DNA of 50,686 nt from IMG/VR virus record IMGVR_UViG_3300021401_000008, positions 1 through 50,686 of that record. One strand, written 5' to 3'. Positions 4,770 to 19,794 of this stretch are shown here, one piece after another. The position numbers and the translations under genes are program-made. Origin of the DNA: a virus. The first letter of the stretch is position 1; every line of letters begins with the position of its first letter. Under the pieces are notes generated by a model. The model ran no database searches, had not been told where the DNA came from, and was given only the letters and a program-made list of their open reading frames with translations.

Positions 4770-4786
4770 CGTGCTATCCCTTCGTG

Positions 4787-5449
4787 CTATTTTCTTCTAA
4801 GATACCCACCCGGATTCCAAGTCATCAAAAACTTCTCACGTCTTCGATCTACCTCGAACTGTTCATTATACAAACTAAGAAACTCTTTTACCGCCCAACC
4901 TGGTCCATAACCGAAATTTAGAGGAGCGTCCACGTTCGTGTCCTCCACAATCAAATACTGACCTGATGTCACCAACCTCCAATACATCATCAACTCTTGA
5001 ATCACATGTGGCGTACTATGATCGTCATCTAGAATGACCATCACTTTCTTTCCATCTGTCCTGTTCTGGATCTCGTCACGTATCAATGGATTGACTGAAT
5101 CCCCGACGACGTAAGTAATCCGATCGTGTGGTGGCACAATCCCCAGCCGATTGTCAATGTCGACTGTAATGATCTGCCCGTTGCCAATCAAATCCAAAAC
5201 ATGAGCCATGAACAATGCTGAGGCTCCTGATGCTGTACCCATCTCTACTATCAAATCTGGCTTACACTCCCACAGAATTTCCTGGTAGATCCAGAGATCG
5301 AGCGGATTCTTCTGAATGAGATACTTACCACAATAGTTCGCATCCAACTGCACGACAACTTGATCGTCACCTTCTCCAATTCTCATCTGGAGCTGGCCCT
5401 TCGAGTACCAGAGACGATGAAAAGAATCGATCAACTCTTTCTCTTCCAT
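4787..5449 (-). CDS. CmcI-like SAM-dependent O-methyltransferase
   Basis: This 220-residue protein resembles the CmcI / rhamnosyl O-methyltransferase family. A Rossmann SAM-binding loop EMGTASGAS (69-77) is followed by VDID (96-99), an acidic metal-site stretch ILDDDHS (139-145) and a second acidic pair VEDTN (168-172). Relatives methylate small molecules or sugars, and no DNA substrate is known. In a phage it could modify a nucleotide, a glycan or a host metabolite; the substrate cannot be read from sequence. The ATG at 5449 shares one base with the upstream stop (TGATG) and has GGAG 6 bases before it. A GTG at 5452 is less likely. Confidence 0.8.
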   Translation of the reverse strand: MEEKELIDSFHRLWYSKGQLQMRIGEGDDQVVVQLDANYCGKYLIQKNPLDLWIYQEILWECKPDLIVEMGTASGASALFMAHVLDLIGNGQIITVDIDNRLGIVPPHDRITYVVGDSVNPLIRDEIQNRTDGKKVMVILDDDHSTPHVIQELMMYWRLVTSGQYLIVEDTNVDAPLNFGYGPGWAVKEFLSLYNEQFEVDRRREKFLMTWNPGGYLRRK

Positions 5450-5574
5450 CACTTACTCCCATGCTTTCTGTGCCACCAAACCAGCCTGTGTACCCCTTCG
5501 ACAAAACCAAACGACAGCACCAGAGCCAATACTGGTGCTAGTATCTTATGATTCAGAATCCAAGTCTCGATCAT
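5449..5574 (-). CDS. 41-residue single-span membrane protein
   Basis: This small frame opens directly after the (TNNGG) array and ends in a TGATG junction with the methyltransferase gene. The protein starts MIETWILNHK, has one hydrophobic helix (about residues 11-28, LAPVLALVLSFGFVEGVH) and ends in a basic tail (HRKHGSK), which suggests a cytoplasmic C-terminus. The last unit of the array, TGGGG, followed by ATAA, supplies the ribosome site. The tight coupling to the next gene and its position as the first product after the array support it being real. The function is unknown. Confidence 0.65.
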   Translation of the reverse strand: MIETWILNHKILAPVLALVLSFGFVEGVHRLVWWHRKHGSK

Positions 5575-5578
5575 TTAT

Positions 5579-5658
5579 CCCCACCTTACCCCACACTAGC
5601 AGACCTAACCCAACCACACCCGAGCTTACCAAACCTTGCCACACCTTACCTTGCCAAA
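5579..5658 (-). repeat. Degenerate pentanucleotide array 1, (TNNGG)16
   Basis: On the coding strand the gap between two genes reads stop codon, G, sixteen 5-base units of the form TNNGG, ATAA, then ATG. The sixteen units fill 80 bases with no phase slip. Departures are CAAGG (twice), TAAGC, TCTGC and TAGTG, each with one change. It is the shortest of three such arrays in the window (see 13225-13369 and 18722-18836). All three begin GTTTGG directly after a stop codon and end at the ribosome site of the next gene. The role is unknown. Confidence 0.93.
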
Positions 5659-5659
5659 C

Positions 5660-5923
5660 TCATTGCCCAGCTGCTATTACGGTCAACACCTGGGAAAAGG
5701 CTTCTGTCACTGACATCAACAGCCGACCGAATGTTCTCGCCTTGAACCGGAACTCTTCCTTCTGATCTTCTGGCAGTGAGTCGACGTAATCACGCAGCTG
5801 CTTCTCTGCTATCTGCATCGACATCTCACCAGAAGCCACGGCCACCCACAATTTCAAAACTACTTCCTGCTGTGACGTCGTCTTTTCAACTGCGATCTTG
5901 TCCTTGTCTGCTTTCGTTGCCAT
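5660..5923 (-). CDS. Hypothetical protein, 87 residues
   Basis: This is a mostly helical, charged protein with a Lys/Asp-rich N-terminus (MATKADKDKIAVEKTTSQQE) and a hydrophobic C-terminal helix (about residues 66-87, LLMSVTEAFSQVLTVIAAG). I do not recognise a family. It lies downstream of RecA and directly upstream of repeat array 1, whose first base follows its stop codon. An AAGGAG-like ribosome site precedes the ATG. It is probably transcribed with the recombination genes. Confidence 0.7.
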   Translation of the reverse strand: MATKADKDKIAVEKTTSQQEVVLKLWVAVASGEMSMQIAEKQLRDYVDSLPEDQKEEFRFKARTFGRLLMSVTEAFSQVLTVIAAGQ

Positions 5924-5936
5924 CTCATTCTCCTTT

Positions 5937-6242: not shown

Positions 6243-6245
6243 TCC

Positions 6246-7169: not shown

Positions 7170-7277
7170 TTCGTATCTTCTTCGTTCTCTTTCAACATCT
7201 CGTCTGTGACCCCTCCATCCCCTTCGACGTCTTCTCCCACACCCAATGGATCGTTATCAACGATCTCACCGGGACTA
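7166..7277 (-). CDS. Possible +1-frame extension of the SSB acidic tail, or a small gene
   Basis: Directly past the SSB stop, the +1 frame stays open and reads SPGEIVDNDPLGVGEDVEGD and then GGVTDEMLKENEEDTK before a TGA that forms an ATGA overlap with recA. The acidic composition matches an SSB-type C-terminal tail, and the ATGA overlap is the usual junction between real genes here. No good start with a ribosome site lies between 7277 and the end, except an ATG 11 bases after GGAGGGG that would give only ten residues. A +1 frameshift at the end of SSB, an assembly indel, or a degraded gene could each explain it. Confidence 0.4.
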
Positions 7278-8315
7278 CTCGTCGTCGTCTTCTGGGGCTG
7301 GCTTGGGCTTTTTCTTTGACGTTGGAGCAGGCTCTTCTTCGTCTTCTTCAACGACTGGCTTTTTCTTTGCTGGCTTTTTTGGCGCTTCTTCTTCCTCTTC
7401 GGTTGACTCACTCTCTTCCTCCTCTTCAGCTGGCTTCGGTTTCTTTTTCTTCGGTGGAGCTTCTTCCTCTTCCTCTAACTCAGGGATGTCCTCTTCTGTC
7501 TCGCCGGCTTCTTCTTCCTCTTCTTCAACTACCGGCTTTTTCTTGGCTGGTTTTTTCGGTGGAGCTTCTTCCTCTTCGGTCTCCCCCTCTGTTGTCTCTT
7601 CTTCTGTTGTCTCCTCCTCTTCCTCGACTACTGGTTTCTTTGGCTTCTTTGGTTTGACTTCTTCTTCCTCAGCAGGCTCTTCTGGTTCGTCTGGCTCCTG
7701 CTCATGTCCGTAGTACTCGGCCTTCATGACAGCTTCGTCATAAGCCTTGAGCACTTCCTTGAATGGCTTGAGCTTGGCCAGCAACTTCTCTGGGACTTCC
7801 GACTTCTCGTCGTCTCGATCGATGTCGCCGTACTTCGTGGTCGTCATCGTCGTGCCTTTACGAGAGATCGTTAGGTTATATCCCTTCTTTGGATCGCTGA
7901 CGTCTCGTCTCGACATCACACCCAACAGCTTGTTGGCTACCCCACCCGACATCTCCCAAAGCGTTGGCCCGACCCACTTGCCATCCATGACGTAAATGAT
8001 CTGGACGGCAAAGCACTCTTTCGCTGCTAGGGCTTCTGCTGCCGCCTTGTGTGGGGATTTAGGTGACTTCTCCAACTTCGGAATCTGCTCATCACACAAC
8101 CAGCATTCGCCCTCTCCACTCATCTTCTTTCCACAACGAAGATAAGCCTTCCGGGCGCCGACGTTCGAATGCATCCTGTACTCGATGTACTCGGCCTTCT
8201 CTGTCCCACGTGCGTTCGGCATGACTCGAAACGTCGTATCGCCTTCCGGCAACTTGAATCGTTTCCCTGCCGATCGCTCGTTTAGTTTTGCCTTTGCTGC
8301 TTCCTTTTTATCCAT
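7275..8315 (-). CDS. ssb: gp32-like single-stranded DNA-binding protein with long acidic tail
   Basis: The protein has 346 residues. Residues about 1-205 form a compact domain with a Cys cluster (CGKKMSGEGECWLCDEQ, about 63-79) comparable to the zinc site of T4 gp32, followed by an OB-type region. From about residue 207 to the end is a low-complexity tail of alternating Glu runs and Lys/Pro blocks (for example EEEEAPPKKPAKKKPVV, present in near-copies). Acidic SSB tails recruit replication and repair proteins; this one, at about 140 residues, is far longer than usual. It lies next to UvsY-like, RecA and polymerase genes. Function is inferred from the Cys cluster, tail and position rather than overall similarity. 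Confidence 0.78.
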   Translation of the reverse strand: MDKKEAAKAKLNERSAGKRFKLPEGDTTFRVMPNARGTEKAEYIEYRMHSNVGARKAYLRCGKKMSGEGECWLCDEQIPKLEKSPKSPHKAAAEALAAKECFAVQIIYVMDGKWVGPTLWEMSGGVANKLLGVMSRRDVSDPKKGYNLTISRKGTTMTTTKYGDIDRDDEKSEVPEKLLAKLKPFKEVLKAYDEAVMKAEYYGHEQEPDEPEEPAEEEEVKPKKPKKPVVEEEEETTEEETTEGETEEEEAPPKKPAKKKPVVEEEEEEAGETEEDIPELEEEEEAPPKKKKPKPAEEEEESESTEEEEEAPKKPAKKKPVVEEDEEEPAPTSKKKPKPAPEDDDE

Positions 8316-8336
8316 CTTGCTTTTTTCCTTTCGTGA

Positions 8337-8555
8337 TTAGTTACTACGAAATTTTTTCCCACTTTGTGTTGTTTGATCCGCCTCCATCTCAGCTTCCAAC
8401 GCTTCAATCATCTCCTTCTTCCGAGTCAAATAAAACTCGATAAGTTCTTTCGCATGCTTAGTTACTGTCCCCAACAAAACTTGAGCCATGCAACCAATAG
8501 CCGTAAGACTGGTGACTGTTATAAAGAAAATTGCAAACCAATCTACCACACTCAT
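8337..8555 (-). CDS. Small membrane protein, 72 residues
   Basis: One clear transmembrane helix near the N-terminus (about residues 6-29, WFAIFFITVTSLTAIGCMAQ and onward) is followed by a charged amphipathic segment (EFYLTRKKEMIEALEAEMEA) and a basic end. The ATG is in a 4-base ATGA overlap with the UvsY-like gene, so the two are probably coupled in translation. I do not recognise the family. Membrane anchoring beside SSB and recombination genes is odd, and the function is unknown. Confidence 0.72.
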   Translation of the reverse strand: MSVVDWFAIFFITVTSLTAIGCMAQVLLGTVTKHAKELIEFYLTRKKEMIEALEAEMEADQTTQSGKKFRSN

Positions 8556-9049
8556 TCCTCTACCTCTTCTTTCCCCATCGATCTTTTCAAACGTTCCCGC
8601 TTGTTCTTCATCTGCTCGACTGTATGCTGACCACTAAAATTATCTTGCATGAATGCGTACTGAGCTAACACTTTGATTGAACTACGTCTGTGCTCATAGG
8701 CATCCAACAGCCCCTTCGCCCATTCTTCTATTCTCTTCGCCGTTGCCAACTCTTCTACTGCTGTCCGTAGTTCTGGGACTCGTTCGACCAACTCACTGAT
8801 CATTCGTTCTGTCGTTCCCTTTTTCCCTTTGTGCTTGAATCTCATCTTCAAACTGTAGTCTGTTCTCAGATTGTCAGCGTGCATCTCAGCTTCTTGTCGG
8901 ATGCGCATCTTCTTGATTCGATAAGTGACGGCAGCCATATAACATTTCGCTTGCTCAAGAGCCGCTAACTCTGTCTCTTCTTGTGCAAAAGCCAGATGAT
9001 CTAGCAGCTCATGCACGTCTACTTCGCCGATCAATGGTTTCTTTGGCAT
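8552..9049 (-). CDS. UvsY-like recombination mediator (candidate)
   Basis: This 165-residue, almost wholly helical protein has the layout of phage UvsY-like proteins. An N-terminal acidic helix with HELLDHLAFAQEETEL is followed by a long basic helix (YRIKKMRIRQEAEM), a short variable linker, and a closing pair of helices (RIEEWAKGLLDAYEHRRSSI) like the part of UvsY that ends in an 'AL.a...R...Ik' pattern. UvsY helps load the recombinase on SSB-coated DNA. Encoding next to SSB and RecA supports the call. Overall sequence similarity is low, so this rests on layout and context. Confidence 0.5.
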   Translation of the reverse strand: MPKKPLIGEVDVHELLDHLAFAQEETELAALEQAKCYMAAVTYRIKKMRIRQEAEMHADNLRTDYSLKMRFKHKGKKGTTERMISELVERVPELRTAVEELATAKRIEEWAKGLLDAYEHRRSSIKVLAQYAFMQDNFSGQHTVEQMKNKRERLKRSMGKEEVEE

Positions 9050-9058
9050 GACAATTGA

Positions 9059-9949
9059 TTATACAACTTCCTTTTTCATTTCCTTTTGAAGTTTAATCTG
9101 AAACTGTTGGTTCTTCTGGCACCACTTCTCGACAAACTCTTCTGGTGGCTCACCAGCATACTCGACCATCACTCCCAGTCTGAATCCGGCTTTAGCTTCA
9201 GATTTCAACGGAACGACCCACTTTACTTCTGGCCACCATTTAGCTACGTAGACCAGAATCTCTTTCTCCATCAGCTGATTAAATTGCTTGTACGCTTCTA
9301 CCAGCTTCAATAGCTTGACGAAAACATATAGCGAATCATGCACTTCCATCGATGGCCGCTGGAGCAAATTGTATGTCTGTGGCTTAATCCCGATGATCGC
9401 CATCGCAATCAACATCAACTGATGAGCTGTTCCCTGAATTGGGCTGTTAACTGCTTGGTTTGCCCAGAATGTTGTTCTCGTCTCATCTCCAGCAATGGCA
9501 ATCTCTCTGACGAAACCAAACAAAGTTTCCACATAGGCATTGTCTTGTGCAAACTGATGCTGGTGCTCGATGAATTCTGCTACTCCAGAGAACCTCTTGA
9601 AATAGGCTTTCCACAGCTTGGCTACGTCTTCCTTCGACATGTTGAATGGCTCACCACGTTCCAAAGCCTCATTCAGCAAATGGTAGTACAGCGATTCTTC
9701 TGTTAACCCGTAAATGATTCCGAAGTGTAGCCCTTTGATTGCTGTTCTGAGAGGCCTGTCTTTCATGATCTTTGCAATCGGCTGCCCGGTTAACTCATGT
9801 CCGACTGATGCGTGGATATCTTCTCCCGATTGGATTAGCTCGATCAGCCTCTTGTCTTTTGACATCTGAGCCAGCACACGAATCTCTAACTGGCTGTGAT
9901 CTGCTCCAAGATAGACATCAAGATCGCCGAATTTGCTGACTAGACTCAT
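9059..9949 (-). CDS. polA: Family A DNA polymerase, C-terminal part (palm/fingers) of a split enzyme
   Basis: This 296-residue protein is only the catalytic end of a PolA-type polymerase. It starts just before motif A: GADHSQLEIR (15-24, catalytic D17). It then has the finger helix motif B with R68, K72, F76 and Y80 (RTAIKGLHFGIIYG), NSPIQGTA (168-175) and motif C EVHDS (202-206, catalytic D205). The exonuclease, thumb and first palm strands are missing and are encoded 1.1 kb upstream at 11044-12924. The ATG is in an ATGA overlap with the preceding gene, so the split is an established gene arrangement, not a chance stop. Motif C has Ser where bacterial PolA has Glu (HDE). Confidence 0.93.
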   Translation of the reverse strand: MSLVSKFGDLDVYLGADHSQLEIRVLAQMSKDKRLIELIQSGEDIHASVGHELTGQPIAKIMKDRPLRTAIKGLHFGIIYGLTEESLYYHLLNEALERGEPFNMSKEDVAKLWKAYFKRFSGVAEFIEHQHQFAQDNAYVETLFGFVREIAIAGDETRTTFWANQAVNSPIQGTAHQLMLIAMAIIGIKPQTYNLLQRPSMEVHDSLYVFVKLLKLVEAYKQFNQLMEKEILVYVAKWWPEVKWVVPLKSEAKAGFRLGVMVEYAGEPPEEFVEKWCQKNQQFQIKLQKEMKKEVV

Positions 9950-10149
9950 CTTGGATGTCCTGGAAAAGGATGAAACATTCCGGTCTGATTCTTTTCTTCT
10001 CTAGCTTTCTTTTCGGCTTCTTTCTTTTTACTGAATGGTCCAACTACATAATCATACTTTGGAAAATCTTCTGGCTCAGGATCTTTACTAGAAGAAAAAA
10101 CTTCATGATTCTCATATTGACCTTTAAGAACCCCTACCCAAAAACTCAT
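9946..10149 (-). CDS. Hypothetical protein, 67 residues
   Basis: This small protein lies between the two polymerase parts. Overlaps of four bases (ATGA) on both sides fix its ends. It begins MSFWVGVLKGQYENHEVF, has an aromatic strand-rich first half and a Lys/Glu helix (KKKEAEKKAREEKNQ), and ends FHPFPGHPR. I recognise no family. Confidence 0.72.
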   Translation of the reverse strand: MSFWVGVLKGQYENHEVFSSSKDPEPEDFPKYDYVVGPFSKKKEAEKKAREEKNQTGMFHPFPGHPR

Positions 10150-10628
10150 TTTACTTCTCCATCCAACAAACTAATCGCATCTTCAAACGTATCTGGCTGA
10201 CTCCCACCCGGCCAACTTCTATGCCCAAGTCTTTCTGTAAACTCTTGTACCGACTCGATGGGTAAATGAAAAGCCGCACACATCGCTGTATATCGATCGT
10301 GCGCTACCCGGGATATCTCTCTATCTGGATGACAATAAGCAACCACCTCCAACGAATGCATCAGATGGCTGTAGAAATGTTGGGTACAGAATTCTAATTC
10401 TTTAGCTGTTGGACCTTTCTCCAAAATCAGCTCCGGCTCTTTCGTCATAAACTCTCTGACGTTATCTGGATTCCCTGGCTTGAACGCTAGCCCGCGAAGC
10501 CACCGTGTGATTGTCTTGACTCCCGGCGTACAGTGCGTATCTGGCCCACGCAGCCCAAGAATCAACGTCGACTGCATCCGAATTGGAATCTGGACCAACC
10601 AATCTTGCAACACGCTAGTATTTCTCAT
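10146..10628 (-). CDS. Conserved phage-type hypothetical protein
   Basis: This 160-residue protein contains QIPIRMQSTLILGLRGPDTH near the N-terminus and a helical segment EFCTQHFYSHLMHSLEVVAY in the second half, followed by HPDREISRVAHDRY. From memory, proteins with this layout (an LRG.D segment, then an HWYSH.MHA.EVVAY.HP-like helix) occur in other phages next to nucleotide or replication genes, with no known function. The His-rich helix could form a metal site, but that is only a suggestion. ATGA overlaps at both ends place it in the operon between dCTP deaminase and the polymerase C-part. Confidence 0.75.
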   Translation of the reverse strand: MRNTSVLQDWLVQIPIRMQSTLILGLRGPDTHCTPGVKTITRWLRGLAFKPGNPDNVREFMTKEPELILEKGPTAKELEFCTQHFYSHLMHSLEVVAYCHPDREISRVAHDRYTAMCAAFHLPIESVQEFTERLGHRSWPGGSQPDTFEDAISLLDGEVK

Positions 10629-11047
10629 AGCTTTGACTCCGTAATCCCTCTCTGATCTGTGTACATCCCTCTGTACGGCTCACAAGGACTGGTCGTCTTG
10701 GCGAAGATCAAATGAGCAAAGCGCTCTCCAATCGCCTCTTGTGGTGGAACCATAAACGAGAGCATCTCCAGCGTCAAATTTCCCTTGAACCCGGCATCTA
10801 CGATCGTTGGTGGAAGAAAGAATCCTTTCCTTGCCCACGAGCTTCTCAACTCGACAAAGGCCATCAAATCATCTGGGAGCTCAAGTACTTCTCTTGTACA
10901 ACCCAATGAGAATATACCGACCATCGGCTTAACTTCGTCCAAAATCAAGTCGATCCCATTCTGTTGAAACTGATCATCTCTAACTGGAATTATTTTTAGC
11001 TTTCCGGTCTCGATGTACCACTTCAGATCTCGTCCACTGAGGATCAT
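10625..11047 (-). CDS. dcd: dCTP deaminase / dUTPase-fold protein
   Basis: This 140-residue protein begins MILSGRDLKWYI, like Dcd enzymes, and carries the conserved ELRSSWARKG (about 66-75) and IVDAGFKGNLTLE (about 82-94) motifs of the dCTP deaminase/dUTPase trimer family. These enzymes make dUMP or dUTP from dCTP or clear dUTP, feeding thymidylate synthesis. It is shorter than typical Dcd (about 175-195 residues), ending soon after the YRGMYTDQ segment. The ATG at 11047 is in an ATGA overlap with the polymerase N-part stop and has GGAG 9-10 bases upstream. It is the first of three genes between the two polymerase parts. Confidence 0.87.
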   Translation of the reverse strand: MILSGRDLKWYIETGKLKIIPVRDDQFQQNGIDLILDEVKPMVGIFSLGCTREVLELPDDLMAFVELRSSWARKGFFLPPTIVDAGFKGNLTLEMLSFMVPPQEAIGERFAHLIFAKTTSPCEPYRGMYTDQRGITESKL

Positions 11048-12924
11048 TGCTGTTCTCTCCATTCTTTATATAGGTCTCGCCACCTCAAGTCTGATACCAA
11101 TAAACATTCTATTTCTTCAGCACCGTGGATGTTTTGCAAATTTACAATGCCTTTTGACTTATCCGAAGGCTCTCCTTTCTTTTTCACCTTCTCTCCACCC
11201 GATCTGAGCCGACAAGTGATCGTACCAGTTAGCCACCACTTCGTCCGGACCCGTCCACCGTGTAATGTAGCCGATCGACGGTAAGCATCGAGATACGTCG
11301 ATTTCTTTTTTGCTATCTTCCTAAACTCGGTCAACCGTTTTGGAAATGGATGGAAGTCTGCTAGTAAGGCCATCGTCTCTTTGTTTGTTGATCTAGGAAA
11401 ATCTTTCTTCCACTCGGCATCCAGATGCTTGCCCAGCTTCAATTCGTCGTAAATGATCTTGACTACCTGTTGTGGTGAATTTGGATTGAACTTATATCCA
11501 GCCAGCTTCTGTAACTCTTTTTTCAGCGAGGCTATCTTGATCGGTAGCCAGGTATCTAGTAGATCGGCATGCTGAAAGTCTAGTAACGGACCACGCTCCA
11601 ACTCCATCTTCGCCAGCACTGGAGCTACTAAAATGAGAACTTTTAGCAGCGCCTCGTTTACCTTCCCTTTGTTGCTCCTCTGAATTCTCTTCGTCAAATC
11701 ACAGTCCGCGCCATTGTAGACCCGGATGATCTTCATCGGCACGGTCCAGAAGTTTACCAGCCCGGTCTTCTCGTCCTTGTAATGATCTAGAATATCTTTG
11801 TACCCGGCGAACTCTCTGAACCTGATATCAGCTGTCGCTTCTAACCCGAAGGCTCTACGACCGGAGAATCTCAAATACTCCGAAAGCATCGTATCGTGTA
11901 CGAAGCCTTTGACCTTAACACCCCATAGCTTCTCTAACTTCCAGACATCGTAGACTCCGTTCTGAAATGCTTTTTTGATCTTCGGATCTGTCAGAAGATC
12001 TGATACGAAATGAAATTTTGCTTGCTGTTCGTCTGGTGTATTTTTCAGATCGTGATGGTCAAAGAAAACTCCTCTTGATTTTCCTTTCTCCCATGAAAAG
12101 CCAACATACACAATTACATTCTTTCCTTCAGCGTTTGTTCCATCCTCTATATCTACAGATACAACAATTCCTTTTGCAGCTGCCACCCTTATCGGCTCAT
12201 CAAGCCCAGTCTTCAAAGCACGAGCACCCAATGTCACATACTCTTGACTTTGAATGTAGGAAAATTTCCCAGTCGCACCTTTTGCCTTCTCTACTGCTAT
12301 CGCCAACGCTTCCCGGAACTCCTTAATCTTTGATCTCGGCGCACCTCGTAAGAAGTAGCTGGGATGATAAGTAAGAATGACCCAAGCCTTCAGCTTTTCT
12401 GAATAGAAAGTCTTCTGATCCTTCCGGTACTCGCCTTTGAGAAGAGCTTTCGCAGCCACCTGTCCGAAGACAATATGTACTTTAGTCTGACCTTGCACCT
12501 TCTCCAAAGCTTCTTCTGTATAGATCGAGCAAGCGTGTAGCTCTTCCTTCGTTGGATTATGGAACTCCCACTGCTCGAACTCGTTCTCTGAGACTGTAGC
12601 GCAGCGGACTACATTCTGTATATCGCACATCTCTCTCGTTAACCCAACCGACGCTGCATGCTCCCAAAGAAACTTACCAGCTGGACCCACTAGTTCTTTC
12701 CCTAATCTGTTTTCTTCTGAGCCTGGATTCTGAGCCCAGATCATGATTGACTTACCCTGTAGCTTGTCCAGATTCTTGATCTTCTTCAGCCCTTTGATCT
12801 TATCCAAAGGACAGAAACCACAGCCACGATTCTGATCTTTCCTTGGCTTTCGCTCACCCTTTTCGGGCACAGGATCGAAAGTCTTTTTGTTCTCGTCGAA
12901 CTGCAACACGTTTTGAAATTTCAT
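11044..12924 (-). CDS. polA: Family A DNA polymerase, N-terminal part: UDG-like and 3'-5' exonuclease domains
   Basis: This 626-residue protein has three parts. Residues about 30-215 are a family-4/5 uracil-DNA-glycosylase-like domain with four candidate iron-sulphur Cys (C35, C38, C108, C132), an AQNPGSEE motif (64-71) and HPSY (187-190). Residues about 250-415 are a DEDDy 3'-5' exonuclease (D258, E260, N322/D326, D344, Y403/D407). Residues about 425-626 are thumb and the start of the palm, with a TGT..CRL segment (566-573) and NLQNI (595-599). It stops before motif A, which begins the separate gene at 9059-9949. UDG-PolA fusion is known from SPO1-like phages; the split is unusual. The ATG is in an ATGA overlap. 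Confidence 0.92.
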   Translation of the reverse strand: MKFQNVLQFDENKKTFDPVPEKGERKPRKDQNRGCGFCPLDKIKGLKKIKNLDKLQGKSIMIWAQNPGSEENRLGKELVGPAGKFLWEHAASVGLTREMCDIQNVVRCATVSENEFEQWEFHNPTKEELHACSIYTEEALEKVQGQTKVHIVFGQVAAKALLKGEYRKDQKTFYSEKLKAWVILTYHPSYFLRGAPRSKIKEFREALAIAVEKAKGATGKFSYIQSQEYVTLGARALKTGLDEPIRVAAAKGIVVSVDIEDGTNAEGKNVIVYVGFSWEKGKSRGVFFDHHDLKNTPDEQQAKFHFVSDLLTDPKIKKAFQNGVYDVWKLEKLWGVKVKGFVHDTMLSEYLRFSGRRAFGLEATADIRFREFAGYKDILDHYKDEKTGLVNFWTVPMKIIRVYNGADCDLTKRIQRSNKGKVNEALLKVLILVAPVLAKMELERGPLLDFQHADLLDTWLPIKIASLKKELQKLAGYKFNPNSPQQVVKIIYDELKLGKHLDAEWKKDFPRSTNKETMALLADFHPFPKRLTEFRKIAKKKSTYLDAYRRSATLHGGRVRTKWWLTGTITCRLRSGGEKVKKKGEPSDKSKGIVNLQNIHGAEEIECLLVSDLRWRDLYKEWREQQ

Positions 12925-13217
12925 GGAACTCGCCAAACAACATCCTCTATAGTTCCTAGCCACTCAATTGCTTTTGCTTCCGTCATCGTTCTTCCAAGTG
13001 GACCGTAAAAATCCGTATCATGTACGACGCACCAAAGTTCTTTAGGGCTCAGACCTCCACGTTCTGCTAAGCGTTCTAGAGTCTGAGAATGATTATGCTG
13101 AGCTTGCTCTTCATGTCCCTTAAGCAACTCACGTGGAAACGAAACCGGATACGGTGTGCGATTTCGACGAGCTGCGTGAAACTCTTCAGTTTGTCCAAAT
13201 AGAATTGGATAACTCAT
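12921..13217 (-). CDS. Hypothetical protein, 98 residues, first gene after array 2
   Basis: The protein begins MSYPILFGQTEEFHAARRNR and has a central ERLAERGGLSPKELWCVVHD segment, a helix-turn pattern seen in many small phage proteins, and a C-terminal LGRTMTEAKAIEWL segment. I recognise no named family. Its translation begins 7 bases after the last unit of the 29-unit (TNNGG) array, and its stop overlaps the polymerase N-part by four bases (ATGA). Whatever the array controls would therefore also affect the polymerase. Confidence 0.72.
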   Translation of the reverse strand: MSYPILFGQTEEFHAARRNRTPYPVSFPRELLKGHEEQAQHNHSQTLERLAERGGLSPKELWCVVHDTDFYGPLGRTMTEAKAIEWLGTIEDVVWRVP

Positions 13218-13224
13218 TTCTTCA

Positions 13225-13369
13225 CCCTACCTCACCCGACCTTAGCCTACCAGACATTACATTACCAGACCTCACCTCGCCTCACCCTACCTTACCAGAC
13301 CATGCCGCAGCTCACCAGACATCACCGCACCATACATCACCTTAGCTTACCAAACCCTACCATGCCAAA
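13225..13369 (-). repeat. Degenerate pentanucleotide array 2, (TNNGG)29
   Basis: This is the largest of the three arrays: 29 units of TNNGG on the coding strand fill 145 bases with no insertion or deletion. It is preceded by a single G after the clamp gene stop and followed by TGAAGAA and an ATG. Exceptions carry one change each: C at position 1 (CATGG twice, CGAGG), T at position 4 (TGATG twice, TAATG twice) or C at position 5 (TAAGC, TGAGC, TAGGC). The last unit, TAGGG, serves as ribosome site for the 98-residue gene. On the + strand it reads as a CCNNA repeat. Confidence 0.95.
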
Positions 13370-13370
13370 C

Positions 13371-14468
13371 TTATTTACCAATCTGTCTCGCCACCATCAT
13401 CTCCACCCCACCACCGGATAGAAGATAAGGTGTATTCTTCTGTTCGTCCACTCGTACTTTGATCCACTCACCATTCTGGGCCATGTAATCAACAACTGCT
13501 AAAGCTAACTCCAGTGGCCATCTGATCGTTCCTTCTACTGTCCCGTTCTCAATCTCCATCTGCTCTTCGAACTTTCCCTGCTGAACTCGTACTGATGCTT
13601 TGACTACTCCTTGATCGATCGCCATCTCCACAATCCAGTCTTCCCTCTTCACTCCACCCAAGTAGCTGGCCAATCTGGCTAGCATCTTTGAGAGCTTCTC
13701 GGCTGGCAGTCTGGTGAGTAGTGGCCATGTCCGTCCTTTCTGTATCTTCTCCACTACGTCCTTCTTTGGAAACGATTTCTGAGCTACTGCCGAAATCGTT
13801 CCTTCTATGAATCCACAACCACAATCCAGCATGACTCGATCGTTCTCCACTCCAACTGCTTGCACCAGACTGTCACCTAATAGCGGAATGATGCCGACTG
13901 GAAATGGAATTCTCAATGCATCTTCTTGGTCTCGTACTCCAACGAATAGTGAAATCAGATTCGTCGATAGCACCAACTTGCCACCGATGTAGACACAATT
14001 TAGATGCGGCAACGCTGGATCGGCTGTCGAACAGTGATTCGAAGCCAGTAGCAGTTTTCTCAAGCCCTCTGATAGCTTTATCTCTTTCGACTTGTCTCGA
14101 TCTCGCCAGACTCCGTAGCCACTCACTGGCTCTTTTCTCATCGAGAAGTCTGCCTTACGACTGCCCTGTCTGATCAACCATTTATCTTCTGTCAAAGCCA
14201 TCTTGAAATTGCCCTTCCAGCTTTTTCCGGCTTGAATGTAGGCTGTAAATAATCCTTTGTCGACAAAAAATGGTCCCGGCGTCAATGTATCGGTCAAAGG
14301 AACCCGAACCACACCGGTCACCGTCGATGAAAGTGACATCTCGATTGCATTCTTTTTTGTCAGTACTCGGACAAAGTCTGATGAAGGAATCCCGGCTCGT
14401 TGTGGAACAAGACTCAGCACATCCACAGCTGTGATCATTGCTTTCTTATCGGCTTCTACCCAGCTCAT
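13371..14468 (-). CDS. dnaN: DNA polymerase sliding clamp (beta-clamp-like)
   Basis: This 365-residue protein is read as a beta-type sliding clamp. It has three similar beta-rich segments, a GKLVLSTNLISLFVGV strand pair in the middle, and a C-terminus (YLLSGGGVEMMVAR) like the end of DnaN, where the last strand closes the ring interface. The length equals that of bacterial DnaN. Overall similarity is low, as expected for phage clamps. The clamp loader at 3.7-4.8 kb is its likely partner. The ATG at 14468 is in an ATGA overlap with the 59-residue gene; a longer in-frame start at 14543 would overlap that gene heavily and is rejected. Confidence 0.75.
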   Translation of the reverse strand: MSWVEADKKAMITAVDVLSLVPQRAGIPSSDFVRVLTKKNAIEMSLSSTVTGVVRVPLTDTLTPGPFFVDKGLFTAYIQAGKSWKGNFKMALTEDKWLIRQGSRKADFSMRKEPVSGYGVWRDRDKSKEIKLSEGLRKLLLASNHCSTADPALPHLNCVYIGGKLVLSTNLISLFVGVRDQEDALRIPFPVGIIPLLGDSLVQAVGVENDRVMLDCGCGFIEGTISAVAQKSFPKKDVVEKIQKGRTWPLLTRLPAEKLSKMLARLASYLGGVKREDWIVEMAIDQGVVKASVRVQQGKFEEQMEIENGTVEGTIRWPLELALAVVDYMAQNGEWIKVRVDEQKNTPYLLSGGGVEMMVARQIGK

Positions 14469-14644
14469 CGCTTCCTTCTCAGGACATAATCTATAAACAA
14501 AGAATTCACAAATTTTGGAATCCAGATAGCTTTTCCTTCGCACTGTATCAACTTAAAGAAAATCTCCCCACGGATTCCAAACATTCTAACCAAGGCCTCT
14601 TTAGAATGTTCCAAGTCGCTTATCTCTAATTGTTTTCTTCTCAT
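14465..14644 (-). CDS. Hypothetical protein, 59 residues
   Basis: ATGA overlaps at both ends (14644 with the gene upstream, 14465 with the clamp) define this gene. The protein begins MRRKQLEISDLEHSKEALVR and ends LFIDYVLRRKR. It is basic, with a central aromatic segment (GIRGEIFFKLIQCEG). No family is recognised. Tight coupling to the clamp suggests co-translation. Confidence 0.68.
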   Translation of the reverse strand: MRRKQLEISDLEHSKEALVRMFGIRGEIFFKLIQCEGKAIWIPKFVNSLFIDYVLRRKR

Positions 14645-14850
14645 GCTGATTGCTCCACTAACTCCACGTAAGGCTTTCCCGACGGTGGAGCCCATCCAGT
14701 AGCGAAGAAAACTTTTCCATGCCATCGGATCTTGGCTTTCATCGTCTGTCCCCACATAAGAAAAGCATCTGGCATCTCAGCTGATAAGTCTTCTATCATA
14801 TCTTTCTGTGTTACCAGCAAATTCCAATCGCTGACTGACATCTTCATCAT
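14641..14850 (-). CDS. Hypothetical protein, 69 residues
   Basis: The start at 14850 overlaps the GTP cyclohydrolase stop (ATGATGA), with GGAG 3-4 bases before the first ATG. A second ATG at 14847 may be used instead. The protein has DWNLLVTQKDMIEDLSAEMP and a compact Gly/Pro/Trp-rich end (FFATGWAPPSGKPYVELVE). No family is recognised. It sits between the DNA-modification pair and the clamp. Confidence 0.68.
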   Translation of the reverse strand: MMKMSVSDWNLLVTQKDMIEDLSAEMPDAFLMWGQTMKAKIRWHGKVFFATGWAPPSGKPYVELVEQSA

Positions 14851-15491
14851 CGTTCTCCTCTCACAGCTGCCAGAAACTCAGCCCGTGCTGTTGCTTCTTT
14901 GAAAGCTCCCTCCAACGCCGTCGTCGTTGTCCAAGCTTCTTTCTTCACTCCACGCATCTCCATGCACAAATGACGACCACGAATTAAACAAGCGGCGCCT
15001 TTCGGCTGGAGACCTTTCTGGAGTAACTGAGCGATCTCTGCTGTCGTATCTTCCTGGAGAGCAGGCTTCTTGGCTACTAACTCAGCCAATCGAGCCAGCT
15101 TAGACAACCCCAACACTTTTTTCTTTGGGATGTAAGCGATCCAAATCCGCATCATCACGGGCAAAAAATGATGTGGGCACATCGACCACAACTGGATCGG
15201 ACCCACTGTGATCATCTCATCTGATTTAGCCGGAAATGTTTTGCTAAGGATTTCGGTTAGTTTGGTTCCATCATCAAACAGCCCATCGAAAATTTCTGCA
15301 TAGGCTCTAGCTACTCTTTCTGGTGTATCTTCGAAGTTCGGACCGTAACGTCTAACCTTCCCATGAGAGACTCGCTGCAAACTTTGTAAGATCTCAGCGA
15401 TACTTGCGGCTACTTCCCTTTTGAACATAAATACAGCATTCTCTCGTACTTGCTCTTCGTTCTTTCTCTTCCAATGATTCTTCGTTATCAC
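14847..15491 (-). CDS. folE: GTP cyclohydrolase I
   Basis: This 214-residue protein has the full FolE core: the SMCPHHFLP zinc/catalytic motif (103-111, with C105, H107 and H108), IPKKKVLGLSKL (121-132) and the second zinc Cys with RGV (C176 in HLCMEMRGV) followed by TTTT. FolE turns GTP into dihydroneopterin triphosphate, the first step of folate and of preQ0/7-deazaguanine synthesis. Its overlap with a DpdA-like gene favours the DNA-modification role. I chose GTG at 15491 because it forms a GTGA overlap with the upstream stop, has GGAG 8 bases before it, and gives the normal family length. QueD, QueE and QueC are not in this window. Confidence 0.93.
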   Translation of the reverse strand: MITKNHWKRKNEEQVRENAVFMFKREVAASIAEILQSLQRVSHGKVRRYGPNFEDTPERVARAYAEIFDGLFDDGTKLTEILSKTFPAKSDEMITVGPIQLWSMCPHHFLPVMMRIWIAYIPKKKVLGLSKLARLAELVAKKPALQEDTTAEIAQLLQKGLQPKGAACLIRGRHLCMEMRGVKKEAWTTTTALEGAFKEATARAEFLAAVRGER

Positions 15492-16528
15492 AGTATTGGC
15501 TCCATCTTCATGTATCTGTCTCTGAAAGTGTCCTTCCACTGATTCATGTGTGCAAAGATCCATCCGTTGTAGACGAAACGATAGGCCAACGATCTCTGTA
15601 ACAACTCGAAGTCGAACCCATTCTTCTCCACCTGCTGCCTTATCGACTTCATTGCTGCTGGTGAAAGCTCTGTCGTTGATCTCGTCGAGCTTTTCAGCCC
15701 ACCCGTCAGCGAAACATGCTGAGCTGTCATTGAGCCCCTGTCCGGCTCCAATGCATAAATCGCACCGTACGACGCCGTCCTGGACCAGCTGCTCGAGTCG
15801 ACTGAATGCCAAGGATATGCGTAAGCGAGTGCAATAGATGTTACAGCAAATCCGTGCAGTTTCACTTTATATCCCTCTACAGCCCGGAACACCTGATCGA
15901 GATAGAACCTGGTCTTCTTGTAGTCTGATTTCCTTCTGGCCAAACTCGAGATACCGATTCTGGTATAACCGGCGTCGAGATACTTCTTCAGCCAGTCCAG
16001 CGAATCATCGCCGTGATAGACTGGCACCGGCTTCAGCCCATGTTCTTCCAGAATCTTGGTGACGCCCCAGACCACCCTAACGTCTTGCGTCCAGTCGAAC
16101 GTAACGCACCACGAAATATCTTTGCTGTGCTTTTTGACAAAGCGGACATACAGCTCGATCGTCTTCTCTCTAAGCTTCTCTATATTGCCGACGTTCTTGT
16201 TCTTGAGAGCGAAAATATGGAATGAGAAAGCCCCGGAATCTAACATGATTGGATTGCCGTGAGCTACGTTTACTTCGAAAGACTCTAGCGCTCTCGAAGA
16301 CCAATAGATGGCTTCTGGATCTATATAGACGAAGGAAAAGCAGCGATACCGTACACCGGAGCATTTCAAGAACTCTTCTTCCAGCTCCTTTGCGTGCACA
16401 ACTGTGTGAGATAGATGAATTCTCGGCAACTCATCTGTCTGGGGTACGATTTTTGGATGTGGACCGTTCGCTAGAACTAACGTTTCTCTTTTTCTTGGTG
16501 TTGCTCTGTTCTTTGCTCCGCCCATCAT
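15488..16528 (-). CDS. dpdA: DpdA-like guanine transglycosylase for 7-deazaguanine DNA modification
   Basis: This 346-residue protein resembles phage DpdA, a relative of tRNA-guanine transglycosylase that swaps guanine in DNA for a 7-deazaguanine. Visible motifs are LDSGAFS (96-102, like TDSGGF of TGT), TFDWTQDV (143-150), VYHGDD (170-175), HGFAV (225-229) and SVDSSSWSR (242-250), with D244 as a candidate nucleophile. Modified phage DNA resists many restriction enzymes. It is directly followed by FolE, which makes the first pathway intermediate. The ATG at 16528 is in an ATGA overlap with the gene before it and has GGAG 9 bases upstream. Confidence 0.85.
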   Translation of the reverse strand: MMGGAKNRATPRKRETLVLANGPHPKIVPQTDELPRIHLSHTVVHAKELEEEFLKCSGVRYRCFSFVYIDPEAIYWSSRALESFEVNVAHGNPIMLDSGAFSFHIFALKNKNVGNIEKLREKTIELYVRFVKKHSKDISWCVTFDWTQDVRVVWGVTKILEEHGLKPVPVYHGDDSLDWLKKYLDAGYTRIGISSLARRKSDYKKTRFYLDQVFRAVEGYKVKLHGFAVTSIALAYAYPWHSVDSSSWSRTASYGAIYALEPDRGSMTAQHVSLTGGLKSSTRSTTELSPAAMKSIRQQVEKNGFDFELLQRSLAYRFVYNGWIFAHMNQWKDTFRDRYMKMEPIL

Positions 16529-16785
16529 ACTAGTTTGCTCCATTCTGGATGTGCCATCATGCAAAGTATGCCATTATACTCTACCAGCTTACCTGACTTC
16601 CGTAACGCTCGCAAAAGGTTCTGTGGATTGGCTCCGATTCGTTTGGCCCATTTGTTAAACTCTTCCAATGTCCTTGCTGTGCTCAGAAACTCGAACGCTT
16701 TCTGCCTTGCTGTTCCCTTTCTGAAAGTCTGGGCACACTTGGCGGTCTGGACAGAACGTTGAGCACTCGAGCGTCGTCTTGTCAT
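16525..16785 (-). CDS. Small helix-turn-helix-like protein overlapping a zinc-ribbon gene
   Basis: The C-terminal half (AFEFLSTARTLEEFNKWAKR, then NPQNLLRALRKSGKLVEYNG) looks like a small winged-helix or HTH fold. The stop is in an ATGA overlap with dpdA, so the end of this frame is surely used. The start is not settled. An ATG at 16785 has a near-perfect AAGGAGGT site only 3 bases away but lies 131 bases inside the zinc-ribbon gene, far more overlap than elsewhere here. Alternatively the frame is reached by a +1 frameshift from the zinc-ribbon gene, making one zinc-ribbon/HTH protein. Confidence 0.6.
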   Translation of the reverse strand: MTRRRSSAQRSVQTAKCAQTFRKGTARQKAFEFLSTARTLEEFNKWAKRIGANPQNLLRALRKSGKLVEYNGILCMMAHPEWSKLV

Positions 16786-16951
16786 ACACCTCCTTCTTTC
16801 CGAAACAGGTCTGCTCGTCCTTGGCCATCTTCTGGTAACAGGCTTTACAAATCCCGGTGACTGCTATGTAGGTTCCTTTCTCGATATCCTCTAGTGAGAA
16901 TTTCTCATCGCAGATCAAGCACCAGAGCAGCTTCTTGCCTACGGTATCCAA
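16655..16951 (-). CDS. Zinc-ribbon protein with paired Cys motifs
   Basis: Two CxxC pairs (CLIC and CKAC, about 25 residues apart) are followed by a second Cys-rich block (QTCFGKKEVYD, then ECSTFCPDRQVCPDF). Such layouts bind one or two zinc ions and often occur in small phage regulators. A good ATG is lacking after the sigma gene; the best reading starts at a TTG near 16951, overlapping the sigma gene by 13 bases, with GGGGTGG upstream. Its last 44 codons overlap the HTH-like frame. The C-terminal residues after CPDF look less protein-like, which fits a frameshift into the other frame. Confidence 0.55.
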   Translation of the reverse strand: MDTVGKKLLWCLICDEKFSLEDIEKGTYIAVTGICKACYQKMAKDEQTCFGKKEVYDKTTLECSTFCPDRQVCPDFQKGNSKAESVRVSEHSKDIGRV

Positions 16952-17496
16952 ACACCACCCCGCATCAGCTCCCGACAGTCGTTCTTGGTTAACCCGTTTT
17001 TCTTTGCTAGCTGACAGAACTCTACGTAGAACTGCTTCTCTTTCTCTGATCTCTTGGCTCTCACAGGAACCTGACCGAACCATTTCTTGATTCTCTGCCG
17101 ACAGTCCTCTGACGCTTCGTAGTAGGTTCTGGCCAGCGCGTCTAATGCTTCTTTCTCAGCTATCTTTGTATCTGGCTTGCCGAACCACTCGATGTCTTCC
17201 AGTGGTACTCGCCAACCCATTCTCTTTTTGACTTGGTGCTTGAGTGCGAAATTCAGAAATAGGTTAGAGACTCCGATCCATAGAAACGTGGAAACACTCG
17301 ATTGAGCTTTCCTGTATCTGAATTTTGCGTTTGCCAGGATAGCTACGTAAGCGTCAGCTACCAGATCTTCTGGCTCTACCCACATCTTGACCGAAGCTGG
17401 TAGCTGTCTCCAACTTTTGAAAGCCAGCTGATAGATCATGCCTTTGTACTTCTCGATGATTACTTCGTCTGTCTCACTCCACGTTCTTTTTGCCAT
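16939..17496 (-). CDS. Phage RNA polymerase sigma factor (sigma-70 family)
   Basis: This 185-residue protein has a clear region 2: YKGMIYQLAFKSWRQL, then EPEDLVADAYVAILANAKFR and an aromatic TFLWIGVSNLFLNFAL helix that would melt the -10 element. The C-terminal third (about residues 120-185) has a basic helical stretch but only a degenerate region 4, so -35 recognition may be unusual. It probably redirects host RNA polymerase to phage promoters. The ATG at 17496 has GGGGGAG 9 bases upstream. It lies directly behind a perfect sigma-70 promoter, so the host enzyme can make it early. Confidence 0.87.
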   Translation of the reverse strand: MAKRTWSETDEVIIEKYKGMIYQLAFKSWRQLPASVKMWVEPEDLVADAYVAILANAKFRYRKAQSSVSTFLWIGVSNLFLNFALKHQVKKRMGWRVPLEDIEWFGKPDTKIAEKEALDALARTYYEASEDCRQRIKKWFGQVPVRAKRSEKEKQFYVEFCQLAKKNGLTKNDCRELMRGGVWIP

Positions 17497-17518
17497 TAGT
17501 CGAGTCTCCCCCTGCGAG

Positions 17519-17547
17519 ATTATATAGTACAATCCCCCTAATGTCAA
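17519..17547 (-). promoter_or_regulatory. Perfect consensus sigma-70 promoter for the phage sigma gene
   Basis: On the minus strand TTGACA (17547-17542), exactly 17 bases, then TATAAT (17524-17519). Both hexamers match consensus at all positions. The predicted transcript starts near 17512, about 15 bases before the ATG at 17496. The -35 overlaps the stop codon of the upstream exonuclease gene. It should be read by the host housekeeping sigma factor. Confidence 0.93.
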
Positions 17548-18467
17548 GGCAACCTGAATAGCTTATGCCTCTCTGCTAACAGCTCTTTCAACTCGTACTG
17601 ACCCAAGAACCCGTAAATCTCTCTTCTGTGTCTCTCAGCCCACTCACCATCCCTTCCTGGTCTGGTAGCTACTCTCTTCAGTAAGTCTACCAAAACACTA
17701 CTTGTCTCTTTCGTCCATACCTCGCTTCTCGGATCTGTGATGATCTTTGCCATCTGTCTTTCTTTGAAAACTCTACGCCAGTGCTCATCGTATTTCTTTA
17801 CTAAAGCAGAACCCGATGCATAAAAACCCACCACTCTCAATCCTTGCTTCCATAACTTGACTGCCGTCTTTAGCCCAACTCCGGGCAGCCCTTTCAAACC
17901 ATCACCTGGATCTCCGGCCATCGCCCTGATATCTAAAAAAGCATTCATCGGAGCCCCAAGCCATCTCTCTACATCCTTCACTTTCAAAGGCTTCTGATCT
18001 AAATCGTGCCAAGCCCATACGTTGTTATCCAATAGCTGAAACAGATCTCGATCTTTTGAGAAAATTCGAACTTCATGCCCATGTCTGGCTAAGTTACTAG
18101 CCACCATACCGATCATATCGTCCGCTTCTACTTCATCTAGCTGGAGGACCCATAATCCGAGCAATCGCAAAATCGGAATCAGCTGATGTATCTGCCACTG
18201 CATCTTCTCATACTCAGGATTGAAAGCCCTATTTGCTTTGTAGGCTGGATACGCTTTATGCCTCCATGTTTTCTTTTCTCCGTCCCAGCAAATGATGATC
18301 CTAGCCTCTGGCAGCTTTTTGTTAATCTTGAGCAGCTCAGTCAGAAACCCGTAGAACATACCGGTCGGCTTCCCACCTGAACTCAATTTCAAATGGGCGA
18401 AGTGATGTCTATACGCACACCACTTTCCGTCGATAATTACAATTTGCTTAGTCACTGCTCTTTTCAC
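17544..18467 (-). CDS. 5'-3' exonuclease / flap endonuclease (PolA N-terminal domain type)
   Basis: This 307-residue protein is a FEN-type nuclease like T5 D15 or the PolA 5' domain. Acidic metal-site residues fall in IIDGKWCAYR (11-20), ICWDGEKKTWR (about 59-69), DEVEADDMIG and FSKDRDLFQL. A helix-hairpin-helix follows at GDPGDGLKGLPGVGLKTA. It removes RNA primers and 5' flaps, a role missing from the phage polymerase. The start is probably GTG at 18467 (or GTG at 18455); both overlap the preceding stop. The -35 of the sigma promoter overlaps its stop codon. Confidence 0.9.
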   Translation of the reverse strand: MKRAVTKQIVIIDGKWCAYRHHFAHLKLSSGGKPTGMFYGFLTELLKINKKLPEARIIICWDGEKKTWRHKAYPAYKANRAFNPEYEKMQWQIHQLIPILRLLGLWVLQLDEVEADDMIGMVASNLARHGHEVRIFSKDRDLFQLLDNNVWAWHDLDQKPLKVKDVERWLGAPMNAFLDIRAMAGDPGDGLKGLPGVGLKTAVKLWKQGLRVVGFYASGSALVKKYDEHWRRVFKERQMAKIITDPRSEVWTKETSSVLVDLLKRVATRPGRDGEWAERHRREIYGFLGQYELKELLAERHKLFRLP

Positions 18468-18714
18468 CTGGCATCCAGAATTTTACATTTAGTAGACTAC
18501 CAACCATAGAAGTACCTTCGAACTCTTTTCTAGTCAGCTCAAAGAAGCCTCTCTTCCAACGAGCTAGCGTAATCCGAGTTCCTTCTTCGCACTCAGCCAG
18601 TATCTTCCCTTGTAGCTCTGGTGTCAATTTTCCTTCTAGATCTGCTCTTTCTTTCCCGGCCCCATCAAAGACTGCCAACGAGCCGTCTGTAAATAAGTAC
18701 ACGTCCTTTATCAT
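18448..18714 (-). CDS. Hypothetical protein, 88 residues, first gene after array 3
   Basis: The protein begins MIKDVYLFTDGSLAVFDGAG, followed by a Glu/Lys-rich helix and a strand-rich end (TRITLARWKRGFFELTRKEF). I know no family. Its ATG follows the last unit of array 3 plus AGAAAAA, and that unit makes a TAAGGAGA ribosome site. It overlaps the exonuclease gene by about 20 bases. Confidence 0.72.
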   Translation of the reverse strand: MIKDVYLFTDGSLAVFDGAGKERADLEGKLTPELQGKILAECEEGTRITLARWKRGFFELTRKEFEGTSMVGSLLNVKFWMPGEKSSD

Positions 18715-18721
18715 TTTTTCT

Positions 18722-18836
18722 CCTTACCTCACCTTACCAAACATGACCCAACCTTAGCCAACTGTACCACACCACACCAAACCTTACCATACACCACCTT
18801 GCCTAACCACACCACAGCTCACCACGCCGCACCAAA
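18722..18836 (-). repeat. Degenerate pentanucleotide array 3, (TNNGG)23
   Basis: Twenty-three TNNGG units on the coding strand fill 115 bases with no phase slip. They lie between the primase stop (TGA then G) and the spacer AGAAAAA before the next ATG. Single changes are CGTGG, CAAGG (position 1), TGGTG, TCATG (T at position 4), TACAG (A at position 4), TGAGC and TTGGC (position 5). Arrays 1, 2 and 3 share the opening GTTTGG and the TAAGG/TTTGG unit types, but their unit order differs, so they are not recent copies of one block. Confidence 0.95.
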
Positions 18837-18837
18837 C

Positions 18838-19794
18838 TCATCTGTCTCTCATCAGTGATTTTATTCTCATGCGCAGCAGTGGTGTTATCTCTTTTCTAGC
18901 TGCCAGAAGTTCCCTAATCTCTGAGTCATGCATCTCATCTGCTTGCTGCTCAGGCCAAGGCCAGACCATACTGACCTTCTTTACCAACGGCTGTAAGTTA
19001 TCGGCAGCAGCCAAATAGCCCTTCATACCGATTACATCTGGATCAACGAAGAGAACCACTTCGTCAAATTGTTTCAGCTGGTTTGATTGGATCGCTGTAA
19101 TCGCATTTCCCATCGTCGCCGAAGAGACCATCTTATACTCCGTCGCTCTCTCTATTGCCAGCGCTTTCGGTATCCCTTCCGAGACTACTACAATCTTCGT
19201 ACCCATCTCGTATTTCTCGGGATGAACGTTATATGCGCATTTGTTCCCAACTGAATTCTCATACTGCAAGAATCTCTGCCCCGTCCAGTCTCTCCCAACC
19301 ATACCAGCCAACATATCACCATAACGGACTGGAAAAATGATCATGTGATGAAACTTGTCATCTTGCACCGTTGCACCGATCTCATGCGTTCTAAGCTGTC
19401 TAGGCGTGATACCTCTTTTCCGGACATACTGCCTAGCTCTTCCGAATAATGGATCGTTGTCTGTCACGTCTTTCAGCTTTTCAAAGCCTACTGGAAAATC
19501 TACTGGATCTGGTCTCGTTCTGGTCTTTTGTGTGAAAGCTTCTGCTCGTATCTCTTCGAAGCTATCTGAACCGAGCTGTCTTAGGATATCCAGTAGTACC
19601 TTTCTGGAACTCCAACCACAGCGAAAGCAATGACCCAATCCGGACTTGATATTAAATCCGAGCTTAAACTCGAAATCGATCCCACGATTTCTCTCCGGAC
19701 AGAACAAACAACAGATCTTGAATTCGTCTGGCTCTGTCGAATGCTCTCTGACTTCGACACCTTTCAAAGTCATCTGTGTAAAGAAATCGATCAA
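18838..19794 (-). CDS. dnaG: DNA primase with zinc ribbon and TOPRIM domain
   Basis: This 318-residue primase has a zinc ribbon (C29 and C32, then C56 and C59), a linker, and a TOPRIM domain with VVSEGIPKA (203-211, E206) and FVDPD (249-253, D251 and D253). Such enzymes lay down RNA primers; the partner helicase is probably the DnaB-like protein at 23.5-24.9 kb. The length is typical of compact phage primases. The best start is TTG at 19794, with GAGGAG 8 bases upstream, because no ATG fits. Its stop codon is followed at once by array 3. Confidence 0.9.
   Translation of the reverse strand: MIDFFTQMTLKGVEVREHSTEPDEFKICCLFCPERNRGIDFEFKLGFNIKSGLGHCFRCGWSSRKVLLDILRQLGSDSFEEIRAEAFTQKTRTRPDPVDFPVGFEKLKDVTDNDPLFGRARQYVRKRGITPRQLRTHEIGATVQDDKFHHMIIFPVRYGDMLAGMVGRDWTGQRFLQYENSVGNKCAYNVHPEKYEMGTKIVVVSEGIPKALAIERATEYKMVSSATMGNAITAIQSNQLKQFDEVVLFVDPDVIGMKGYLAAADNLQPLVKKVSMVWPWPEQQADEMHDSEIRELLAARKEITPLLRMRIKSLMRDR

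Follow-up and report, generated by a model that had tools for sequence, protein, structure and literature searches.

VIPR was reported in 2026, in a preprint, as a type of minimal locus made up of a vipr gene and short guide RNAs, and was described in Escherichia phage SUSP1 and in a Pseudomonas fulva prophage (PMC13142463). In the main text of that report the guides (vrRNAs) are 9-16 tandem YNNGG repeats in which GGY is conserved and NN hypervariable; the vrRNA binds Vipr, a small RAMP protein, via GGY, the NN pairs encode a gapped DNA target that is read as NNx, and a conserved fold of the vrRNA 3' tail is given for the SUSP1 clade (PMC13142463). Our literature search on VIPR/vrRNA and GGY/YNNGG found no further publication.

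The DNA analysed here (the window) is the whole 50,686-nucleotide stretch of the IMG/VR virus record IMGVR_UViG_3300021401_000008. It carries arrays that resemble these vrRNAs in their tandem YNNGG units, kept GGY and hypervariable NN, in being phage-encoded and in lying on the operon strand. They differ from the vrRNAs analysed in the main text of the report in being dispersed over a replication operon, each from a stop codon to a Shine-Dalgarno sequence, in their length (10-50 units, with six of nine arrays in this phage and its relatives at 23-50, against 9-16), and in having neither a vipr or vap gene recognised beside the window arrays nor a common 3' tail in the window. This placement in the gaps of a core operon, together with their size and the fact that no partner protein was recognised, makes them a variant of VIPR-type arrays.

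TRAP also binds repeats of 5-nt pitch that consist of a triplet and two free bases, (G/U)AG-NN, but the triplet here is GGY rather than GAG and nothing points to TRAP; the association with Vipr (below) accounts for the repeat rule. The guide RNAs of Class 1 CRISPR systems are held by RAMP-fold subunits, and the predicted structure of a Vipr-family member, which matches RAMP subunits, suggests the same arrangement. CRISPR arrays themselves are built differently, as the window arrays are contiguous 5-base units with no repeat-spacer structure and have their information in two of every five bases. A model for a guide-like RNA without an effector would be the RNA anti-CRISPRs of phages and solitary CRISPR repeats, although what these imitate is the CRISPR repeat and not a GGY/NN unit.

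Three arrays between stop codon and next start

The three arrays of the window (16, 30 and 23 units) all lie on the coding strand, which is the minus strand, and each has the form STOP-G-TTTGG...ATG. One base separates the upstream stop codon from the array (TGA G TTTGG, TAA G TTTGG and TGA G TTTGG), so the sequence-only reading of this DNA was right that all three have the same first unit after a G, and the last unit lies 4, 2 and 7 bases from the next ORF start in arrays 1, 2 and 3, respectively. Their array scores are 17.5, 30.7 and 25.4, and when the window was shuffled 20 times (first-order Markov) no segment reached 5; the arrays are not due to chance.

Array 3 (18722..18836) fills the gap that runs on the minus strand from 18837 to 18715 as follows: a G, 115 bases (23 x 5) and the spacer AGAAAAA (18715..18721), 123 bases in all. 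This confirms the position and decomposition of the gap given by the sequence-only reading, which had written the array as (TNNGG)23; the 23 five-base units stand, and the rule was overstated, as 16 of them are TNNGG and 18 are YNNGG, with GG broken in the other five (TGAGC, TGGTG, TACAG, TTGGC and TCATG). Upstream is a primase-like (Toprim) gene (18838..19794, minus strand; phrog_47, E 7e-31) whose stop TGA abuts the G of the array, and downstream are an 88-aa ORF (18448..18714, minus strand) and then a 5'-3' exonuclease gene, in agreement with the placement between primase and exonuclease-operon genes that had been proposed. The last unit, TAAGG, makes the ribosome-binding site TAAGGAG with the first bases of the spacer, and thus supplies part of the Shine-Dalgarno sequence of the 88-aa ORF (TAAGGAG-AAAAA-ATG). 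Array 3 is a candidate vrRNA-like guide array.

Array 2 (13220..13369, minus strand) has 30 units, of which 19 are TNNGG and 22 YNNGG, and follows a sliding-clamp-like DNA polymerase processivity factor gene (13371..14543, minus strand; phrog_947, E 5.5e-5); a 98-aa ORF (12921..13217, minus strand) comes immediately after it. Array 1 (5579..5658, minus strand) has 16 units (11 TNNGG, 13 YNNGG) and lies between an 87-aa gene (5660..5923, minus strand) and a 41-aa hydrophobic ORF (5449..5574, minus strand), beyond which is a methyltransferase-like gene (Pfam RMNT_CmcI; 4787..5452, minus strand). A structured invariable 3' tail is absent after the window arrays, where the next ORF is 2-7 bases away and the three downstream sequences are unlike, and an Rfam search of the window, L321 and L324 gave no match. 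The apparent seven-unit spacing of the lengths 16, 23 and 30 is broken by the related phages, whose arrays have 29, 25, 26, 50, 10 and 12 units.

The repeat rule and the arrays of related phages

Two array-bearing relatives, G021 (55 kb) and G022 (21 kb), were found through the boundary pattern STOP-G-TTTGG; the replication genes they share with the window are mostly 57-83% identical to it, a few small genes being lower. G021 has arrays of 29 units after the clamp gene, of 25 and 26 before the methyltransferase gene and of 50 before an SbcC-like gene, and G022 has 10 units at the clamp site (site 2) and 12 before the methyltransferase gene (site 1). The ORF that follows the array at site 1 is alike in the window and G022 (41 and 51 aa, with GVHR..W.RKH in common) and the NN order of the arrays is unlike, and at site 2 both relatives have ORFs other than the 98-aa one after the array. 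Three units (TTTGG CGAGG TGGGG) that end the G022 homologue of a 141-aa gene of the window may be an array remnant, as the 50-unit array of G021 begins there.

The nine arrays of these three phages contain 221 units. Of these, 220 have T or C at position 1, 198 have G at position 4 and 206 have G at position 5, and there is no constraint on NN. Perfect YNNGG accounts for 182 units and the other 39 are imperfect; both G are kept in 183, and the remaining 38 have TG (20) or GC (14) in place of GG in 34 cases. Single breaks among 2164 units of Vipr-bearing loci (below) are spread more widely (GC 47, GA 42, TG 39, GT 32, AG 19, CG 5), so the set of breaks is narrower in this phage group. The 5-base phase is unbroken through all arrays of the group as our scan delimits them, and a two-base step ends one G021 array. 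On these sequence counts the rule should be written YNNGG, not TNNGG, and it matches a VIPR-type guide scaffold.

Is the order of the NN pairs kept as well as the rule? When the nine arrays were aligned unit by unit, exact unit order was not conserved: none of the 36 array pairs is closer than the permutation noise expected for 36 tests (lowest p 0.045), including pairs at homologous sites whose flanking genes are 72-83% identical, and no 4-unit word is shared. Shared words of two and three units are slightly above expectation, the observed counts being reached in 18 and 21 of 1000 shuffles, respectively. The arrays are thus not copies of one another, and the rule is what is kept. Both proposals of the sequence-only reading, that the arrays are not recent copies and that selection has acted on a rule and not on a fixed sequence, are borne out in this comparison.

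Site 3 lies outside the sequenced parts of G021 and G022, and array 3 itself was therefore compared only with G018, a 29.3-kb relative without arrays. G018 is syntenic with window positions 540-19794, its core genes are mostly 45-72% identical (a 202-aa ORF is 38%), and no segment of it scores 5 in the array scan, at any of the three sites or elsewhere. At site 1 its clamp loader gene directly follows the homologue of the 87-aa gene and the methyltransferase gene is located elsewhere; at site 2 a gene that we read as cupin-like and a small hydrophobic gene replace array 2 and the 98-aa ORF; and at site 3 a gene of ~175 aa replaces array 3 and the 88-aa ORF. The comparison of G018, G021 and G022 indicates that arrays come and go among relatives and that NN is far less conserved than the flanking genes.

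The Vipr family beside such arrays, and the search for a Vipr in this phage group

Scanning viral_contigs for exact (TNNGG)x6 gave at least 120 stretches. Among the matches listed, some are one simple unit repeated (e.g. L021, L029, L117 and L122), and 49 of 120 loci have arrays of degenerate units with six or more different NN, to which we added SUSP1; the resulting total of 50 loci leaves out the window and its own piece, L001. Our array scan finds four arrays in SUSP1, one upstream and three downstream of two genes, which agrees with the main text of the published description (PMC13142463). When the 376 ORFs within 3.5 kb of arrays were clustered with the 69 ORFs of the window, one family of ~200 aa dominated among the matches listed, with one member per locus in 30 loci including SUSP1, the next families being present in five. 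Six-frame searches added six loci and whole-record searches three, so that a Vipr-family gene was found in 39 of the 50 loci (among the matches listed). In the 30 loci 121 of 122 arrays are on the strand of this gene, and 34 of 131 arrays in Vipr-bearing loci (among the matches listed) are longer than 16 units. The predicted structure of the L067 member (25 sequences, pLDDT 93.2) has as its best match a subunit of a type VII CRISPR complex (E 3e-7), followed by type III-A, Csm3-type chains, with query TM-scores of 0.47-0.52 for the first five. The SUSP1 and L009 members match phrog_4652, which is annotated 'unknown function'; two genomes used as controls, those of Caulobacter vibrioides and Thermotoga maritima, also give matches to the phrog_4652 profile.

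Two further features were seen in these loci. At 3230-4391 of L113 eighteen YNNGG arrays, most of them split by CAGT, stand in a row adjoining a Vipr-family gene, and would form a large guide bank. In L088, L121 and L301 short constant sequences, several of them hairpin-like (e.g. TTTCTCTGGCGAGAAA in L121 and GTGCCAATGGCAC in L301), lie between arrays and are perhaps processing signals.

In the window no Vipr was recognised among the 69 ORFs, the best E-value of a six-frame hmmsearch --max being 3.1 and the best hhalign probability 2%, and none was recognised in G021, G022 or G018; the same searches score in G016 and G017, both of which carry vipr, and the family is very diverse. Comparison of 49 different window proteins with PHROGs named no Cas family. 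It named no terminase or portal protein either, and as the window also ends inside ORFs, it is probably a fragment; G021 and G022 look like fragments as well. A Vipr that would serve the window phage most likely lies outside the sequenced fragment or has diverged too far to be recognised. Two proteins were tried as Vipr candidates. The 141-aa protein (3338-3763, minus strand) is 67-70% conserved in the two relatives that have arrays, and no homologue was found in G018, which has none; its predicted structure is poor (pLDDT 42.5) and we claim nothing for it. A 227-aa G021 protein with the same presence pattern in G022 proved to be ThyX.

What the arrays may do

We consider it quite probable that these are operon-embedded VIPR-type (vrRNA-like) guide arrays whose Vipr is off the record, divergent or supplied in trans. 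We assign them to the VIPR type on the basis of the repeat rule and of the Vipr-family genes that accompany such arrays elsewhere, but stop short of calling VIPR itself demonstrated, as the searches yielded no Vipr, tail or targets. From the rule, the strand, the placement, the hypervariable NN at homologous sites and the Vipr-family association in other viral contigs, all of which are observed, a mechanism can be pictured as follows: the transcript of the replication operon would carry a GGY scaffold whose units recur strictly every 5 nt, RAMP-fold Vipr subunits would coat this scaffold, the exposed NN pairs would jointly read a DNA target in three-base steps (NNx NNx ...), and this reading would repress a competing element. 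Because each array spans the distance from the upstream stop codon to the next ribosome-binding site, the guide would need no separate promoter and would be transcribed and processed as part of the operon mRNA of the phage.

We also looked for targets of the decoded arrays; these searches were run without a positive control, so their negative results are weak. Against the window itself, with 0-3 skip bases, the arrays gave only chance scores, which shuffles matched (at skip 1, 19/32, 33/60 and 28/46 for arrays 1, 2 and 3; skip 3 trivially recovers the array itself). Exact 8-unit decoded words occurred in viral_contigs at 7 loci (array 1, units 7-14), at least 120 loci (array 2, units 7-14), and 15 and 9 loci (array 3, units 1-8 and 10-17), and one 10-unit word occurred at 1 locus in genome_contigs; none of the matches listed extends along its array. 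Decoded peptides searched by tblastn (three in phages, one in plasmids) gave nothing with E below 5. Mutual targeting among the window, G021, G022 and G018 is at shuffle level (8 shuffles each) with one exception, the 10-unit site-2 array of G022, which reaches 16/20 at skips 0 and 1 where the shuffle maximum is 15 (8 shuffles).

When NN pairs are decoded with a skip of one base and read as the first two positions of codons, the sense frame fits the 185 internal units best, with 15.6 nats against -2.7 or less in the other five frames. Shuffles of letters reach 15.6 in 0 of 2000 trials, and shuffles of second letters only reach it in 1281 of 2000 (mean 17.0), so the codon-like signal is one of positional base composition only and is weak support for the guide reading. 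The rarity of GG as NN (3 of 185) could equally stem from avoidance of G runs. The 1461 NN taken from Vipr-bearing loci also fit this frame better than the other five, though less well than a uniform model.

A rather less likely reading, which deserves some weight, is that long GGY/NN arrays belong to a phage genus without a Vipr of its own, and act in trans on the Vipr of a host or resident prophage, either commandeering it as guides or titrating it as anti-VIPR decoys. In both cases cassettes would be plugged in between the stop codon and the Shine-Dalgarno sequence of replication genes, and their NN content would turn over between flanking genes that keep their places.

Orphan decoys could work in the manner of RNA anti-CRISPRs, which imitate the repeats of crRNAs: long GGY-scaffold RNAs would soak up the Vipr of hosts, prophages or rival phages, with no need for NN to match anything. 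Three related array-bearing records without a recognised Vipr, the lack of targets in our searches, and tailless arrays of up to 50 units, most of which exceed the published vrRNAs in length, are what such decoys would lead one to expect. We nevertheless judge them unlikely, since the records are fragments, the NN composition is codon-like by position, and 39 imperfect units among 221 are more than expected of a pure binding decoy; moreover, L026 and L067, which have replication genes in common with the window phage or its kin, combine the same stop-to-start array placement with a vipr gene.

It is very improbable that the arrays are cis-acting mRNA elements with no guide role, that is, G-rich, C-poor leaders that act through two-tier G-quadruplexes, RNA stability or translation coupling. 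Arrays that exactly fill the space from stop codon to Shine-Dalgarno sequence, the part of that sequence supplied by array 3, and a GGNNNGG spacing that might allow two-tier quadruplexes would suit such a role, but quadruplexes need neither a strict 5-base phase kept for up to 50 units nor a position-1 pyrimidine in 220 of 221, ordinary folding, with quadruplexes left out, is unremarkable (z -2.2, -1.4 and +1.0), and G018 keeps the core gene order without arrays. A neutral microsatellite or a repeat copied by slippage would fit the wide range of unit numbers at one site (30, 29 and 10) and is scarcely credible, because neighbouring units differ in NN, no 4-unit word is in common, NN is scrambled within a scaffold that persists, and dozens of contigs show this rule next to one protein family.

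If the arrays are guides, as we prefer, VIPR-type information can also sit in untranslated gaps of core phage operons, where gene-based searches would miss it, and in arrays longer than those in the main text of PMC13142463. The NN pairs are readable, and with the mobile elements of its host sequenced, each array would then record what the phage fights. Decoys, in turn, would amount to an RNA counter-measure to VIPR of a kind that the main text of PMC13142463 does not describe.

Other features of the window were seen in passing. A family A DNA polymerase seems to be split (11044-12963 and 9059-9949, minus strand) into a fusion of UDG, 3'-5' exonuclease and the N-terminal part of the polymerase and a separate C-terminal part, with two other ORFs between them. 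The polymerase part of G022 is up to 99% identical to the window; positions 9059-9949 and 10625-11062 are 96-99% identical to G022, most other shared genes being 67-83%, and these positions are perhaps a patch of recent recombination. At 14847-16564 (minus strand) a GTP cyclohydrolase gene adjoins a queuine tRNA-ribosyltransferase-like gene, a pair that we presume could mean 7-deazaguanine modification of the DNA.
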